Origin: Flavobacteriales bacterium | GTDB taxonomy: Bacteria > Bacteroidota > Bacteroidia > Flavobacteriales_C > GCA-002722245 | DNA: 52,837 nucleotides | Direction: 5' to 3' | NCBI GenBank assembly: GCA_947444925.1 | Contig: CANFBW010000021.1 | Coordinates: 1 to 52,837, forward strand | Shown: piece after piece, positions 19,376 to 25,367 of the stretch | Numbering within the stretch: position 1 is the first letter of the stretch | Layout: the number at the start of each line of letters is the position of its first letter | The notes under the pieces: generated by a model | Databases searched by the model: none | What the model was told of the DNA's origin: nothing | The model's input: the letters and a program-made list of their open reading frames with translations, nothing else | Program-made: the position numbers and the translations under genes

Positions 19376-20839
19376 ATGAAATTATTATCTGACATATTGT
19401 ACAAAGCAGGGATTGATGAAATCAAAGGCACTACTAAGCTTGCGATCACATCTATTTGTTTTGATTCGCGCGCAGTGGAGCAGTCTTCACTTTTCGTAGC
19501 GGTGAAAGGTACCAAGGTGGATGGTCATGTATACATTGAAAAAGCAATTGCCGATGGTGCCATTGCAATTGTATGCGAACAGTTTCCTGAAGTGATGAAC
19601 GATAAAATCACTTACGTTCAAGTGAAGGATTCTAGTTTTTCATTGGGCATTATTGCTGCAAATTTCTTCGACAATCCTTCTGAAAAATTAAAACTGGTAG
19701 GTATCACTGGGACAAATGGAAAAACAACCACAGCTACTTTGCTTTACAATCTTTTCAAGAGCACAGGACATAAAGTGGGTTTGTTGTCGACTGTAAAAAA
19801 TCAAATCAACAATGAGAAATTAATATCCACACATACTACGGGTGACGCGATTCAAATCAACGCTTTGCTTAGTGAGATGGTGAAGAAGGGATGCACGCAT
19901 TGCTTTATGGAAGTGAGTTCTCACGCCATTCATCAAAATAGAATTGCGGGCTTGAAATTTGACGGTGCTGTGTTCACCAACATCACGCACGACCATTTGG
20001 ATTACCACGGTGATTTCAATGAATACATCAAAGCAAAAAAAATGTTTTTCGATCATTTGTCTGCCGATGCTTTTGCTTTGGTGAACAGTGATGATAAGCA
20101 TGGTGAAACAATGGTGTTGAATACCCGCGCCAAGGTGCATACTTATGGATTGAAAACGATGGCTGATTTTAAATGCCGCGTTTTAGAAAATAGGTTTTCA
20201 GGCTTGCTGTTGAACATCGACAACAACGAAGTGTGGTCGAAACTCGTTGGTAAATTTAATGCTTACAATTTGTTGGTGGTGTATGCTACTTCTGTTTTGT
20301 TGGGTGAAGATAAGATGGCGGTACTCACATCGCTGAGCGCATTGTCATCAGTGGAAGGTAGGTTTCAATACGTGAAATCGAAAAATGGAATCATTGGCAT
20401 CGTTGACTATGCGCATACTCCCGATGCATTGGAAAATGTTTTGGAAACCATCAATGGTATTCGCACAGGAAATGAAACCGTTATTTCGGTGGTTGGTTGC
20501 GGTGGAGACAGAGATGCTGCGAAGCGACCGGTAATGGCGAAAATTGCTTGTGAAAATAGCGATAAGGTGATTCTTACTTCTGACAATCCGAGGAGTGAAG
20601 ATCCCGAAGAAATCATCAAGCAAATGCGCACTGGCGTTGATGCTGTGAACTACAAAAAGTGTTTGGCGATACTTGATAGACGCGAAGCGATACGCACCGC
20701 GTGTTCAATGGCAAATGCGGGAGACATTATTTTGGTGGCTGGAAAGGGCCACGAAAAATATCAAGAAATTGCTGGTGTGAAACACCCTTTTGACGATCTG
20801 GAAATATTGGAAGAATCACTAAAATTAATTGAAGGATAA
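19376..20839 (+). CDS. murE: UDP-MurNAc-L-Ala-D-Glu:meso-diaminopimelate ligase
   Basis: This 487-residue protein has all three Mur ligase domains. The ATP-binding loop is [15 protein letters not shown]. The substrate-selecting motif DNPR ([12 protein letters not shown]) indicates meso-diaminopimelate and not lysine, so the wall is DAP-type. KGHEKYQE near the end closes the C-terminal domain. It adds the third amino acid to the UDP-muramyl dipeptide in the cytoplasm. The stop and the mraY start overlap as TAATG. Confidence 0.97.
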
Positions 20840-22056
20840 TGCTGTACTATTTATTCAGATACCTCGATGAGATGAATGTTCCCGGAGCGGGAGTTTTTCA
20901 ATACATCACTTTTCGTACCTTATTGGCACTTGTTGTTTCGCTGTTTATCTCTATGATTTTAGGGAAGCGAATTATCAATTTGCTCAGAAAATTGCAAGTG
21001 GGCGAAACTGTTAGAGACCTTGGTTTAGATGGTCAATTGAAAAAACAGGGCACACCAACCATGGGCGGTTTACTGATTTTGTCGGCCATCGTTATTCCTA
21101 CTTTGCTGTTCGCGCGATTGGAGAATGTGTACATCATTCTTTTGCTTGTTACCACCATTGGTTTGGGTTTTCTTGGTTTTCTCGACGATTACATTAAGGT
21201 TTTCAAAAAGAACAAAGAAGGTTTGCAGGGGCGATTTAAAATCATAGGTCAAGTGGGTATTGGACTTATTGTTGGCGCTGTGCTTTTCTTTAATAAGAAC
21301 GTAATCATTGCTGAGCCAGTTAAACATGCGACTTCTGAAACGGTGCAAATTGCAGATAAGGAATTTGTGGAAATGAAGTCGATGAAAACCACCATTCCTT
21401 TTATGAAGGACAATGAATTGGATTATGGAAAAGCAGTGGAGTATTTCGGATTGGAAGCGAGCGAATGGGCATGGTTGATATTTATTCCAGTGGTGATTAT
21501 TATCGTGACGGCGGTGTCGAATGGCGCTAACTTAACCGATGGTATTGATGGTTTGGCGAGTGGTACATCTGCCATTATCGGTACTACGTTAGGCGTGTTG
21601 GCTTATGTGAGTGGTAATGCGGTGTTCGCTGATTATTTGAACATCATGTACATTCCCAATATTGGGGAGCTTGTTGTTTTTATGGGCGCTTTCGTTGGTG
21701 CTTGCATTGGATTTTTGTGGTACAATGCTTATCCTGCACAAGTGTTTATGGGTGATACAGGAAGTTTGTCTTTGGGTGGTATCATTGCTGTTTTTGCAAT
21801 TGCGATTCGTAAAGAATTATTGATTCCTATCATTTGCGGAATCTTTTTGGTGGAGAATTTATCAGTGATTATGCAGGTGAGTTATTTCAAATACACCAAG
21901 AAAAAATTCGGTGAAGGACGACGTATTTTCAAGATGTCTCCTTTGCATCACCACTATCAAAAATCGGGCTACCACGAAGCTAAAATTGTGACGCGTTTTT
22001 GGATCATTGGAATTATTCTCGCGGTATGTGCTATTGCAACTTTAAAATTGAGATAA
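20839..22056 (+). CDS. mraY: Phospho-N-acetylmuramoyl-pentapeptide transferase
   Basis: This 405-residue integral membrane enzyme has about ten helices. Diagnostic segments are [31 protein letters not shown] (the Asp pair for Mg), [12 protein letters not shown] and [22 protein letters not shown] periplasmic insertion at about 155-205 ([14 protein letters not shown] onward) is longer than in E. coli but normal for this phylum. It moves phospho-MurNAc-pentapeptide to undecaprenyl phosphate, making lipid I. Confidence 0.97.
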
Positions 22057-22063
22057 AACTGAA

Positions 22064-23413
22064 ATGCAAGAAGAAACAATTATAGTTTTAGGTGCAGGCG
22101 AAAGTGGCGTGGGAGCAGCCATTCTCGCGCAAAAGCAAGGATACAAGGTTTTTGTATCTGATGCTGGTGTGATCGCCGCCGACTATAAAAATATTCTTGA
22201 AAAATATTCTATTAATTACGAAACCGGTGAACACAAAAAACTGTACCAGTATACCCCGGTAATGGTAGTGAAAAGTCCGGGTATCCCCGAAAAAAATGAA
22301 ACAGTAATATTCTTTTCAAAAAAGAATATTCCCGTAATTTCTGAAATAGAATTTGCAGGTAAATTCAGCTCTGCTAAAATGATTTGCATTTCAGGTAGCA
22401 ACGGAAAAACCACTACCACTTTGTTGACCTATCACTTGCTGAAAACTGCCGGATACAATGTTGGTCTTGCTGGTAATGTTGGTAAAAGTTTGGCGTGGCA
22501 AGTTGCTGAAGAAGCCTATGATTACTACGTTATTGAGTTGAGTAGTTTTCAGTTGGATGGTATGTTTGACTTTAAATCTGATGTTGCAATTTTATTGAAC
22601 ATCACGCCCGATCATTTGGATCGCTATGATTATAAATTTGAAAATTACGTTGCGTCTAAATTTAGAATTACACAAAATCAAAGTGCAACCGATGCATTTA
22701 TTTATTGTGCCGATGATGCAACAATGAAATCATACATGAGTGCGCATTCTTTCGCTGCAACAATGTATTCAATCAGTGTAAAAAATGATGCTGATGTGAC
22801 CGCTGATGAAAATAATTTGCATTTTTCTATTGCAGAAAAAAATGAAATCATCAGTACCTCTGTACTTACTATTCAAGGCAAGCACAATTTTTATAACGCA
22901 ATGGCTGCAGGTAGCGCAGCGCTTTTGATGGGCTTGACTAAAACGCAAATTGAACAAGGTTTTTCTACTTTTATAAATGCAGAACACCGTTTGGAAAAAG
23001 TGGCGGTGATTGATGGAGTTACTTTTATTAATGATTCAAAAGCAACAAATGTAGATTCTGTTTGGTATGCGCTTGATAGCATGCAACAGCCTACAACATG
23101 GATTGTTGGTGGTGTTGATAAAGGCAATGACTATTCAGTGTTGGAATCTTTTGTTAATAAAAAAGTGAAAGGCATCATCTGTCTTGGGAAAGACAATAGT
23201 ATCTTGGAGGCATTATACGGTGCACGAGGTAAATTATTTTTTTCAACCAACGATATTTCTGCCGCAGTGGCAAAAGCAAAAGCTTGGAGTGTGAGTGGTG
23301 ACGCGGTTTTGCTGTCTCCAGCCTGCGCAAGTTTTGATTTGTTTAAAAATTATATCGACAGAGGAAATCAATTTAAAAACATAGTGAACCAAATAATAAA
23401 CCACAATAATTAA
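22064..23413 (+). CDS. murD: UDP-MurNAc-L-alanine:D-glutamate ligase
   Basis: This 449-residue protein is full length. It has an N-terminal Rossmann-like domain (IIVLGAGESGVGAA), the ATP loop GSNGKTTTTLL, then a C-terminal domain from about residue 300 with EHRLEKV, NDSKATNVDSVWYAL and LLSPACASFDLFKNYIDRGNQF. These are the residues that contact D-glutamate and nucleotide in MurD. It adds D-glutamate to UDP-MurNAc-L-Ala. The next gene repeats only its C-terminal domain. Confidence 0.97.
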   Translation: MQEETIIVLGAGESGVGAAILAQKQGYKVFVSDAGVIAADYKNILEKYSINYETGEHKKLYQYTPVMVVKSPGIPEKNETVIFFSKKNIPVISEIEFAGKFSSAKMICISGSNGKTTTTLLTYHLLKTAGYNVGLAGNVGKSLAWQVAEEAYDYYVIELSSFQLDGMFDFKSDVAILLNITPDHLDRYDYKFENYVASKFRITQNQSATDAFIYCADDATMKSYMSAHSFAATMYSISVKNDADVTADENNLHFSIAEKNEIISTSVLTIQGKHNFYNAMAAGSAALLMGLTKTQIEQGFSTFINAEHRLEKVAVIDGVTFINDSKATNVDSVWYALDSMQQPTTWIVGGVDKGNDYSVLESFVNKKVKGIICLGKDNSILEALYGARGKLFFSTNDISAAVAKAKAWSVSGDAVLLSPACASFDLFKNYIDRGNQFKNIVNQIINHNN

Positions 23414-23422
23414 AGCAGAATT

Positions 23423-23974
23423 ATGACTACAAAAGGTAATTTCGAATTTCAAAATCAAATCAAAACGGGACCTACAATGGCTGAAAGCCTGAAGAAGGAT
23501 TATGAGAAAATTCGCAAAGAAGGTATCCGCGAAAGTTTTTCGGAATTCGAAAATGTAGAGCATCGCTTGGAATTTGTTGCCAACATTCACGGGATCGAAT
23601 ATGTCAATGATTCGAAAGCAACCAATGTAAATTCTACATGGTATGCTTTGGAAAGAATGACTAAATCAACGGTGTGGATCGTAGGAGGTGTAGATAAAAC
23701 TGTTGACTATTCTTCACTGCACGAATTGGTGAAAGAAAAAGTAAGATGTGTTGTTTACATCGGTACTGAAAAAAATAAAGCCTTCGAAGCTTTCTTAGAC
23801 AAAGTGCAAATGATTGTCGCTGCTGCAACGATGGAGGAAGCTGTGCAAATGGCATACTACGCTGCTGAAAAAGGAGAAGCGGTATTGATGTCTCCTGCCT
23901 CTGCGAGCTTCAATATGTTTGAGAATTATGAAGAAAGAGGAAACAGATTTAAACAGTTGGTAAGAAACTTATAA
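23423..23974 (+). CDS. Free-standing MurD C-terminal-domain paralogue
   Basis: This 183-residue protein begins with about 38 polar residues and then matches the MurD C-terminal domain from FSEFENVEHRLEFV to ERGNRFKQLVRNL. The preceding murD already has a complete C-terminal domain that aligns along the same length. The substrate-contact motifs NDSKATN, WIVGGVDK and SPASASFNMFENYEERGN are kept. The whole N-terminal and ATP-binding central domains are absent, so it cannot catalyse the ligase reaction alone. The frame is clean, with short gaps on both sides (9 and 12 bp), so it looks expressed and not a remnant. Possible roles are MurD regulation, D-Glu binding or scaffolding; all are inference. 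An ATG at 23477 is an alternative start. Confidence 0.9.
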   Translation: MTTKGNFEFQNQIKTGPTMAESLKKDYEKIRKEGIRESFSEFENVEHRLEFVANIHGIEYVNDSKATNVNSTWYALERMTKSTVWIVGGVDKTVDYSSLHELVKEKVRCVVYIGTEKNKAFEAFLDKVQMIVAAATMEEAVQMAYYAAEKGEAVLMSPASASFNMFENYEERGNRFKQLVRNL

Positions 23975-23986
23975 TCCCATTAAGCC

Positions 23987-24202
23987 ATGTTGGATTTATT
24001 CTTTGAAAACCCAGGAAATAGAAAAGAGAAGTTTGTTCTGATCTTAACCCTATTGTTGTTCGGACTTGTTCTGCTGGCGATTTATGGAGTAGTGGAAATG
24101 GTGAAAGGTTTTAATGCTGTGCATTCCGATTTGGGGACTGCACCGATTGTGAATAGAGGTGATGTGATTGAACAAGTTGCTGGCGATGAAGAACATTTAT
24201 AG
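23987..24202 (+). CDS. Small single-pass membrane protein in the dcw run, unknown function
   Basis: A 71-residue frame has an ATG start, a short charged N-terminus (FFENPGNRKEK), one membrane helix (about 16-38, FVLILTLLLFGLVLLAIYGVV) and a polar tail likely facing the periplasm. It sits 12 bp after the MurD-like gene, and its last 17 bp overlap the start of ftsW, which argues for coupled translation. I do not recognise a family. Its position between murD and ftsW suggests a division or wall role, by inference. Confidence 0.75.
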   Translation: MLDLFFENPGNRKEKFVLILTLLLFGLVLLAIYGVVEMVKGFNAVHSDLGTAPIVNRGDVIEQVAGDEEHL

Positions 24203-25367
24203 TTTTATACACGGCGACAAAATTATTTGGTGGGTTGTTTTTTTACTCTCGTTGATGTCGATTGTTATGGTTTACAAGTCGACAGGGAGTTTGGCCTACC
24301 GCTTTCAAGGCGGAAATACGGAGTTCTATTTGATGAAGCATCTGCTTATGCTTTTTTTAGGACTCGCCATTATTTACTTCACACATTTGTTGAAGTACAA
24401 ATACTTTTCCCGCCTATCTCAAATTTTACTCATCATTTCAATTCCTTTGTTATTGCTGACGATGTTGGCCGGACAAAGTGAAAATTCTGCTGACCGTTGG
24501 TTGGTCATTCCTGGCTTGGGTGTGAGTTTTCAAACTTCGGATTTGGCTAAATTGGCACTCATTACTTATCTCGCTCGTGTATTGCACAAGAGGCAGGAAG
24601 GACAAAAATTTAAAGAAATTTTTTTACCAGTCATCGCACCAATATTTTTAGTGTGCGGACTCATCGTTAAGGTGAACTTTTCTACTGCTGCTTTGATTTT
24701 TGGCACCAGTATGGTTTTGCTTTTTATTGGGCGCGTGCCCTTCAAATATATTTTGTACACCGTTGGAATGGCCATTGGTGCATTCGCTCTTTTCATCATG
24801 GTAGTGATTACCGTTTTTCCAGATAACAATCGCGTACAAACTTGGATCAATCGCGTTGGCGCATGGTCGGGATCAGGAGACAAAGCAACTGAAGAAGATT
24901 CTGAGGCGAATTACCAAAGCAATCTCGCTAAGGCAACCATCGTGAGTGGTGGCGTGTTTGGCAATTGGTTTGGGGGTAAAAATGAAAACCCTTCGCCCCC
25001 ACAAGCTTTCTCTGATTTTATGTATGCTTCGCTGATCAAGGAAACCGGATTTGTTGGTGGTATTTTTTGCATTTTGCTCTACTTGCTTTTGTTCTATCGA
25101 TCGATTCGCGTTGCCGTCAAAAGCGAGTCGACTTTCGCAATGCTTCTGGTAGTGGGTTGTTCTATCTCTTTAGTGTTTCAAGCTTTTTCCAACATGGGCG
25201 TTGCCGTGGGTTTATTTCCCGTAACCGGCCAGCCGCTGCCTTACCTCAGTATGGGCGGTACTTCTTTGTGGTTTACCAGTATTTCAATAGGTATTATTCT
25301 AAGTGTGAGTAAAGAAGTTTATGACAAACAAGAAGACAAACAACAGGTGGCCACGCGTAATCATTAG
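24186..25367 (+). CDS. ftsW: Septal peptidoglycan polymerase FtsW (SEDS family)
   Basis: ATG 24186 is preferred to the TTG at 24168 because it gives a typical N-terminus (MKNIYSFIHGDKIIWWVVF). The 393-residue product has about ten membrane helices and SEDS signatures: SADRWLVIPGLGVSFQTSDLAKLALI, YQSNLAKATIVSGG, and PVTGQPLPYLSMGGTS near the end. It polymerises lipid II glycan strands at the septum together with the PBP. Its end overlaps murG by 47 bp. Confidence 0.95.
   Translation: MKNIYSFIHGDKIIWWVVFLLSLMSIVMVYKSTGSLAYRFQGGNTEFYLMKHLLMLFLGLAIIYFTHLLKYKYFSRLSQILLIISIPLLLLTMLAGQSENSADRWLVIPGLGVSFQTSDLAKLALITYLARVLHKRQEGQKFKEIFLPVIAPIFLVCGLIVKVNFSTAALIFGTSMVLLFIGRVPFKYILYTVGMAIGAFALFIMVVITVFPDNNRVQTWINRVGAWSGSGDKATEEDSEANYQSNLAKATIVSGGVFGNWFGGKNENPSPPQAFSDFMYASLIKETGFVGGIFCILLYLLLFYRSIRVAVKSESTFAMLLVVGCSISLVFQAFSNMGVAVGLFPVTGQPLPYLSMGGTSLWFTSISIGIILSVSKEVYDKQEDKQQVATRNH

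Follow-up and report, generated by a model that had tools for sequence, protein, structure and literature searches.

A stand-alone MurD C-terminal domain between murD and ftsW in Bacteroidia, a putative non-catalytic component of wall-precursor synthesis

Genes at the locus

The DNA analysed here, which we call the window, is a stretch of 52,837 nucleotides from a Flavobacteriales bacterium (contig CANFBW010000021.1 of assembly GCA_947444925.1). In its dcw cluster a complete murD is followed by an ORF encoding only the C-terminal part of MurD. Positions equivalent to MurD residues are numbered by E. coli MurD, whose sequence was verified against the PDB. The features are as follows.

20839 to 22056, + strand: mraY, the upstream neighbour of murD
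22064 to 23413, + strand: complete murD, 449 aa, the parent paralogue (TIGR01087 positions 1-440 of 441, E 9.5e-112; MurD_N, Mur_ligase_M and Mur_ligase_C)
23423 to 23974, + strand: stand-alone MurD C-domain protein, 183 aa, with TIGR01087 and PF02875 matches
23423 to 23476, + strand: N-terminal tail, residues 1-18, without MurD counterpart in the alignments
23477 to 23554, + strand: residues 19-44, remnant of the last MurD central-domain helices (alignment with ten MurD C-termini)
23555 to 23971, + strand: residues 45-183, the whole MurD C-terminal domain (PF02875 at residues 47-159; Foldseek)
23606 to 23626, + strand: NDSKATN motif (E. coli N316-N322)
23696 to 23698, + strand: K92, the equivalent of E. 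coli MurD K348
23891 to 23944, + strand: SPASASFNMFENYEERGN, covering the positions that match S415, D417 (N in this protein) and F422 (Y in this protein)
23987 to 24202, + strand: 71-aa ORF with a single long hydrophobic segment, located between the stand-alone domain and ftsW
24168 to 25367, + strand: ftsW, start codon uncertain, a neighbour kept across families

The stand-alone gene has its own start codon, 9 bp past the murD stop. In a profile search its product matched positions 280-440 of the 441 in TIGR01087 (murD; E 8.5e-50). The score of 170.1 bits is under the curated cut-off of 211.95, so the protein is not a MurD equivalog; against Pfam Mur_ligase_C (PF02875), however, its 43.4 bits exceed the gathering cut-off of 28.4 and make it a member of the domain family. 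It is 41% identical to the neighbouring MurD over 184 aligned positions (E 5e-45). The N-terminal UDP-binding and central ATP-binding domains are missing, as the TIGR01087 match begins only at position 280, and neither a Mur_ligase_M match nor a P-loop was found with the Pfam and TIGR01087 profiles or in the sequence itself. The full-length MurD of the window, in contrast, carries the P-loop GSNGKTTTT.

An earlier, sequence-only reading had described a 183-residue product that spans the whole MurD C-terminal domain, retains NDSKATN and SP..AS...RGN, lacks the ATP-binding domain and follows a complete murD. Our searches bear out each of these points and refine the first: the product also includes the end of the central domain (residues ~19 to 44), starting downstream of HN..N in full-length MurD. 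GGVDK is present as well. The N-terminal tail is lineage-specific, with T3-E8 and Q10 invariant within the window's family.

Structural comparison gave the same assignment. All solved-structure relatives of the protein are MurD, and the best 28 Foldseek matches of its AlphaFold model are MurD structures. The model reached a mean pLDDT of 56 from ten near-identical rows and 65 from twenty rows, which suffices only to confirm the MurD fold and is useless for the N-terminal tail.

Two trivial explanations were rejected. The ORF is not the product of chance or an assembly error, being present in 10 of 10 independent genomes. Nor do the two ORFs make up a split or read-through gene. The murD frame is complete, and its phase relative to the following ORF varies among relatives, so the two are not one gene read through a stop.

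Constraint on the stand-alone gene

The window's family is represented by 10 genomes from two genera, and these ten are all that the sample holds of the order. The stand-alone gene lies directly after murD in every one of them. In all ten loci the stand-alone gene and ftsW are separated by an ORF of 43-92 aa that is poorly conserved in sequence and has one long hydrophobic segment.

Within the two genera, dN of the stand-alone C-domain is 0.026 and 0.039. The corresponding domain of MurD has 0.142 and 0.138, and the remainder of the enzyme 0.23-0.24; the stand-alone value is thus 3.5-5.5 times below that of the same domain in the neighbouring enzyme. The ratio dN/dS runs in the same direction (0.02-0.03 for the stand-alone C-domain, 0.09-0.12 for the MurD C-domain and 0.15-0.16 for the rest of MurD), with dS partly saturated in this family and the dN comparison the safer one. 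Between the two genera the stand-alone protein is ~75% identical and MurD 46-55%. Because dN and dN/dS are lower and between-genus identity is higher, we conclude that the stand-alone domain is more constrained than the adjacent MurD in the window's family. MurD itself evolves fast in this lineage and has not obviously been replaced.

The gene is intact, under purifying selection and without an ATP-binding domain, and its product cannot be a complete ligase. A recent decaying duplicate, which the sequence-only reading had expected to betray itself by absence from close relatives together with decaying reading frames, is ruled out by the presence in all ten genomes and the very low dN. Separately, a locus labelled Chryseobacterium gleum (L046) carries the family's stand-alone gene at 92% identity; it is probably a misnamed metagenome bin.

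Distribution in Bacteroidia

An orthologue search at the same dcw position, as proposed in the sequence-only reading, did turn up stand-alone domains in other families. We searched 396 Bacteroidia genomes of at least 90% completeness, taking two or more stretches as the criterion, and found a second stretch of MurD C-domain type in at least 79 genomes from 18 families; this count leaves out genome G277, discussed below, and two genomes with murD split over contigs. Nearly all stand-alone domains that were read sit between murD and ftsW. In the representatives the ORF has 160-240 aa and lies 1-94 bp past the murD stop, with ftsW behind it wherever the locus extends far enough.

The domain is found almost throughout families f9, f10 and f36, and in part of f20, f5 and f40. 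The mainstream families f53, f39, f35 and f14 gave almost only single matches in the profile search, as did the other classes of the phylum, where a second stretch is almost absent. Outside the window's family, stand-alone domains share 24-96% identity with each other (mean 39%). One genome, G049, has a broken dcw cluster, with murD and mraY on one contig and the stand-alone domain and ftsW on another (L108, L118).

Additional copies were also seen. In genome G308 the interval from murD to ftsW contains a tandem pair of stand-alone C-domain genes (L116:6034-7138). In families f4 and f45, second and more divergent copies (L110:5262-5819, L112:5198-5848) adjoin a gene that, judged by its sequence alone, appears to encode an aldehyde dehydrogenase. 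Apart from this gene in two families, the extra copies located elsewhere in some genomes had no clear functional neighbour.

A family without murD in the cluster

Family f72 has a C-domain-only ORF upstream of ftsW in the dcw cluster, as does the window's family, where one small ORF lies between the two; in f72, however, the cluster has no murD. In G277 the order is murE-mraY-stand-alone-ftsW-murG-murC, and the only MurD found in that genome is an 885-aa fusion of a MurL-like epimerase with a MurD2-like ligase, encoded outside the cluster (L117:5767-8421). A match of stand-alone length is present in 40 of 41 f72 genomes, covering 12 genera; the exception is 61% complete. In 26 of 26 f72 loci mraY directly precedes the stand-alone domain, with no murD between, and ftsW follows in 25, the contig ending in the other. 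In pairs of f72 genomes, dN of the stand-alone gene is well below dS.

The family carries MurD2-like ligases, often fused with MurL into one protein of ~900 aa. MurL was found in 30 of the 30 f72 genomes tested, though below the curated cut-off of a model trained on Xanthomonas. Glutamate racemase (MurI) was found in 0 of 27 f72 genomes, compared with 3 of 3 in the window's family. Among 296 genomes of the class, MurL was found in G277 alone; the window's genome has MurI and lacks MurL, and so does not qualify as a MurD2-pathway genome. Family f72 thus appears to use the MurL/MurD2 L-Glu pathway without a glutamate racemase. A passage of PMC8788868 places the pathway only in Proteobacteria and rare actinobacteria.

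Family f72 is in effect a natural experiment, which separates the role of the stand-alone domain from D-Glu ligation. One reservation applies: the f72 genes may descend from murD by loss of its first two domains, in which case they would not be orthologous to the other stand-alone genes. The trees fit either history.

The glutamate pocket

In simulation, Lys348, Thr321, Ser415 and Phe422 of MurD contact the Glu-mimetic groups of inhibitors, K348 hydrogen-bonding to the Glu-mimetic carboxylate, and Ser415 hydrogen-bonds the D-Glu moiety of MurD inhibitors (PMC3527612). In the window's family R302, D317, K319, T321, K348 and S415 are retained in all ten stand-alone domains. Two changes, C413S and D417N, are fixed. 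The F422 position is Y in the five sequences of one genus and L in the five of the other; Y also occurs at this position in complete MurD proteins of Bacteroidia.

In other families the residues that contact ATP and D-Glu have eroded, and core positions persist. Among 34 stand-alone domains of other families, R302 is R in 17, K319 is K in 18 and T321 is T in 23; K348 is K in only 3 and R in 11. All 34 retain P411, G426 and N316. Erosion is also marked in f72, where T321 is T in 6 of 25 domains, S415 is S in 12 of 25 and F422 is Y or F in 9 of 25. Most D-Glu contacts have gone from these copies, and D317, P411 and the core positions are kept.

From the f72 and G049 loci, the eroded f72 pocket and the lack of a racemase match there, we conclude that persistence of the stand-alone gene is independent of canonical murD, of D-Glu and of an intact pocket, subject to the reservation that the f72 genes may be truncated murD.

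Function

We judge the chances evenly balanced that the stand-alone protein works, without catalysis, as a MurD-derived adaptor or regulator in the cytoplasmic synthesis of wall precursors. Such a protein would dock or regulate through the protein contacts of the MurD C-domain surface, for which the fold would have been kept, and would act neither through ligation nor, in most lineages, through binding of D-Glu. The window's own lineage may be a special case. There the pocket is intact, and the protein, which evolves far more slowly than MurD, may therefore also bind a MurD ligand or act on MurD by contact. The same feature speaks against the adaptor reading as a general account: the window's family retains every D-Glu-contacting side chain tested apart from F422, which fits ligand binding there. 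The sequence-only reading had offered a regulator, a D-Glu sensor or a ligase-binding subunit. A conserved, non-catalytic protein derived from MurD is what we find; the sensor does not hold as a general function.

A more specific form of the adaptor proposal is tentative, with rather less than an even chance: this unnamed dcw protein would be dedicated to a non-catalytic adaptor or regulator role between cytoplasmic precursor synthesis and FtsW, and would be needed whichever of MurD and MurD2 attaches the second amino acid of the stem peptide. The constant adjacency to ftsW is suggestive only, because genes can keep their place in an operon without their products interacting. The small hydrophobic ORF before ftsW is a possible partner candidate in the window's family, and MurD2 could fill that role in f72.

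In the window's own lineage the strongest competing idea is a subunit specific to MurD. The free C-domain would bind MurD, either at the enzyme's N-terminal and central domains or at its C-domain, and would modulate the open-closed cycle or provide the D-Glu site in trans. The gene adjoins murD and is probably co-transcribed with it, given the 9 bp gap; the six pocket residues from R302 to S415 are retained 10/10; and the domain is strongly constrained while MurD evolves fast. Nevertheless, MurD's own C-domain is intact in 10 of 10 genomes and so requires no substitute. The stand-alone gene also persists in f72, where the cluster has no murD, and in G049 it has stayed with ftsW and not with murD. 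A MurD subunit is thus possible but unlikely in the window's lineage, and as a general role, serving the canonical dcw MurD, the ligase-binding subunit of the sequence-only reading fails on f72.

A sensor of D-Glu, or of UDP-MurNAc-peptide, that reports wall-precursor supply is improbable. The C-domain is indeed the D-Glu-binding domain of MurD (PMC3527612), and the contact side chains tested in the window's family would, F422 apart, suit such a role. Elsewhere these side chains are less well kept: K348 survives as K in 3/34 domains of other families, R302 in 17/34 and T321 in 23/34, and in f72 T321, S415 and F422 (Y or F) stand at 6/25, 12/25 and 9/25, with no glutamate racemase found (0/27). 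In addition, the D-Glu site of MurD would be complete only in the closed enzyme, implying weak affinity of a lone domain. Because f72 has no dcw murD, no racemase match and no intact pocket, neither D-Glu sensing nor service to canonical MurD alone can be the general function.

Origin

The 3' end of murD was probably duplicated early in the evolution of Bacteroidia; some families would then have retained the stand-alone copy between murD and ftsW, and many others would have lost it. In our first tree of C-domains, a branch separates the 34 stand-alone domains of other families from the remaining sequences, and another branch sets off these 34 plus the 10 from the window's family (SH-aLRT 85). 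Larger C-domain trees, built from a short alignment, have a backbone without resolution. A tree with all stand-alone domains in one clade was 8.1 log units better than the result of the unconstrained search and is not rejected (p-AU 0.60). The best-scoring history would accordingly be one old origin followed by many losses, which falls short of proof, and independent duplications also happen. One such case is genome G283 of family f42 (L115:4263-6339), where the stand-alone copy and the MurD of the same genome form a group (98).

A different origin, compatible with any of the proposed functions, would make the stand-alone domain the stump of an older MurD, the adjacent full-length enzyme having come later by replacement. 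The window family's stand-alone domain is nearer to other Bacteroidia MurD C-domains (mean 59% identity) than to its own family's MurD (mean 50%), in line with this history. However, the full-length MurD of both genera forms one group among Bacteroidia MurD with 81/91 support. Replacement of the full-length MurD in the window's lineage is thus unsupported, and the grouping on long branches fits fast evolution in place; we regard the stump as very unlikely.

Least credible of all is a functionless, decaying remnant of a tandem duplication, for although several families have fast-evolving copies, losses are frequent and at least one duplication was independent, dN/dS in the window's family (about 0.02-0.03) and the low dN relative to dS in f72 indicate purifying selection, frames are intact in nearly every genome read, and the place is kept across 12 f72 genera without murD.

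Significance and comparison with known systems

The dcw cluster is among the best-studied bacterial gene clusters. That it contains a further conserved gene suggests that peptidoglycan synthesis has a component not yet recognised. The persistence of this gene even where the parent enzyme has gone from the cluster suggests that it probably has a job of its own in wall building. It also makes testable whether a Mur ligase C-domain has contacts beyond its own active site. We found no description of a stand-alone Mur ligase C-domain, or of a MurD regulatory subunit, in the open-licence literature.

Among related structures, 3mvn, a domain of a putative Mpl ligase, gives a weak fold match (E 9e-3), but by its title it was cut from a larger protein and is not a natural single-domain protein. 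HisZ is an example of a catalytically dead paralogue that serves as a subunit of another enzyme. By analogy, the stand-alone protein may likewise be a part of an enzyme reused without activity and encoded in the operon of its pathway, although it corresponds to only one of the enzyme's three domains, and a partner and its activation are so far hypothetical.

The MurD2/MurL pathway consists of an L-Glu ligase and an epimerase and is of the Xanthomonas type (PMC8788868). MurD2 is a relative of MurD, and in f72 MurL and a MurD2-like ligase, often fused, co-occur with the stand-alone domain. MurD2, however, is a full ligase, whereas the stand-alone protein is a single domain, separate from MurD2 and encoded in the dcw cluster.

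The closest comparison is with MurD itself. The two are homologous over the whole C-domain, and in the window's family NDSKATN, GGVDK and SP..AS...RGN are kept, together with the D-Glu contacts T321, K348 and S415 in all ten proteins (F422 being Y in five and L in five). In contrast to MurD, the stand-alone protein is without the UDP- and ATP-binding domains, scores 170 bits against a cut-off of 212, and has the fixed changes C413S and D417N.
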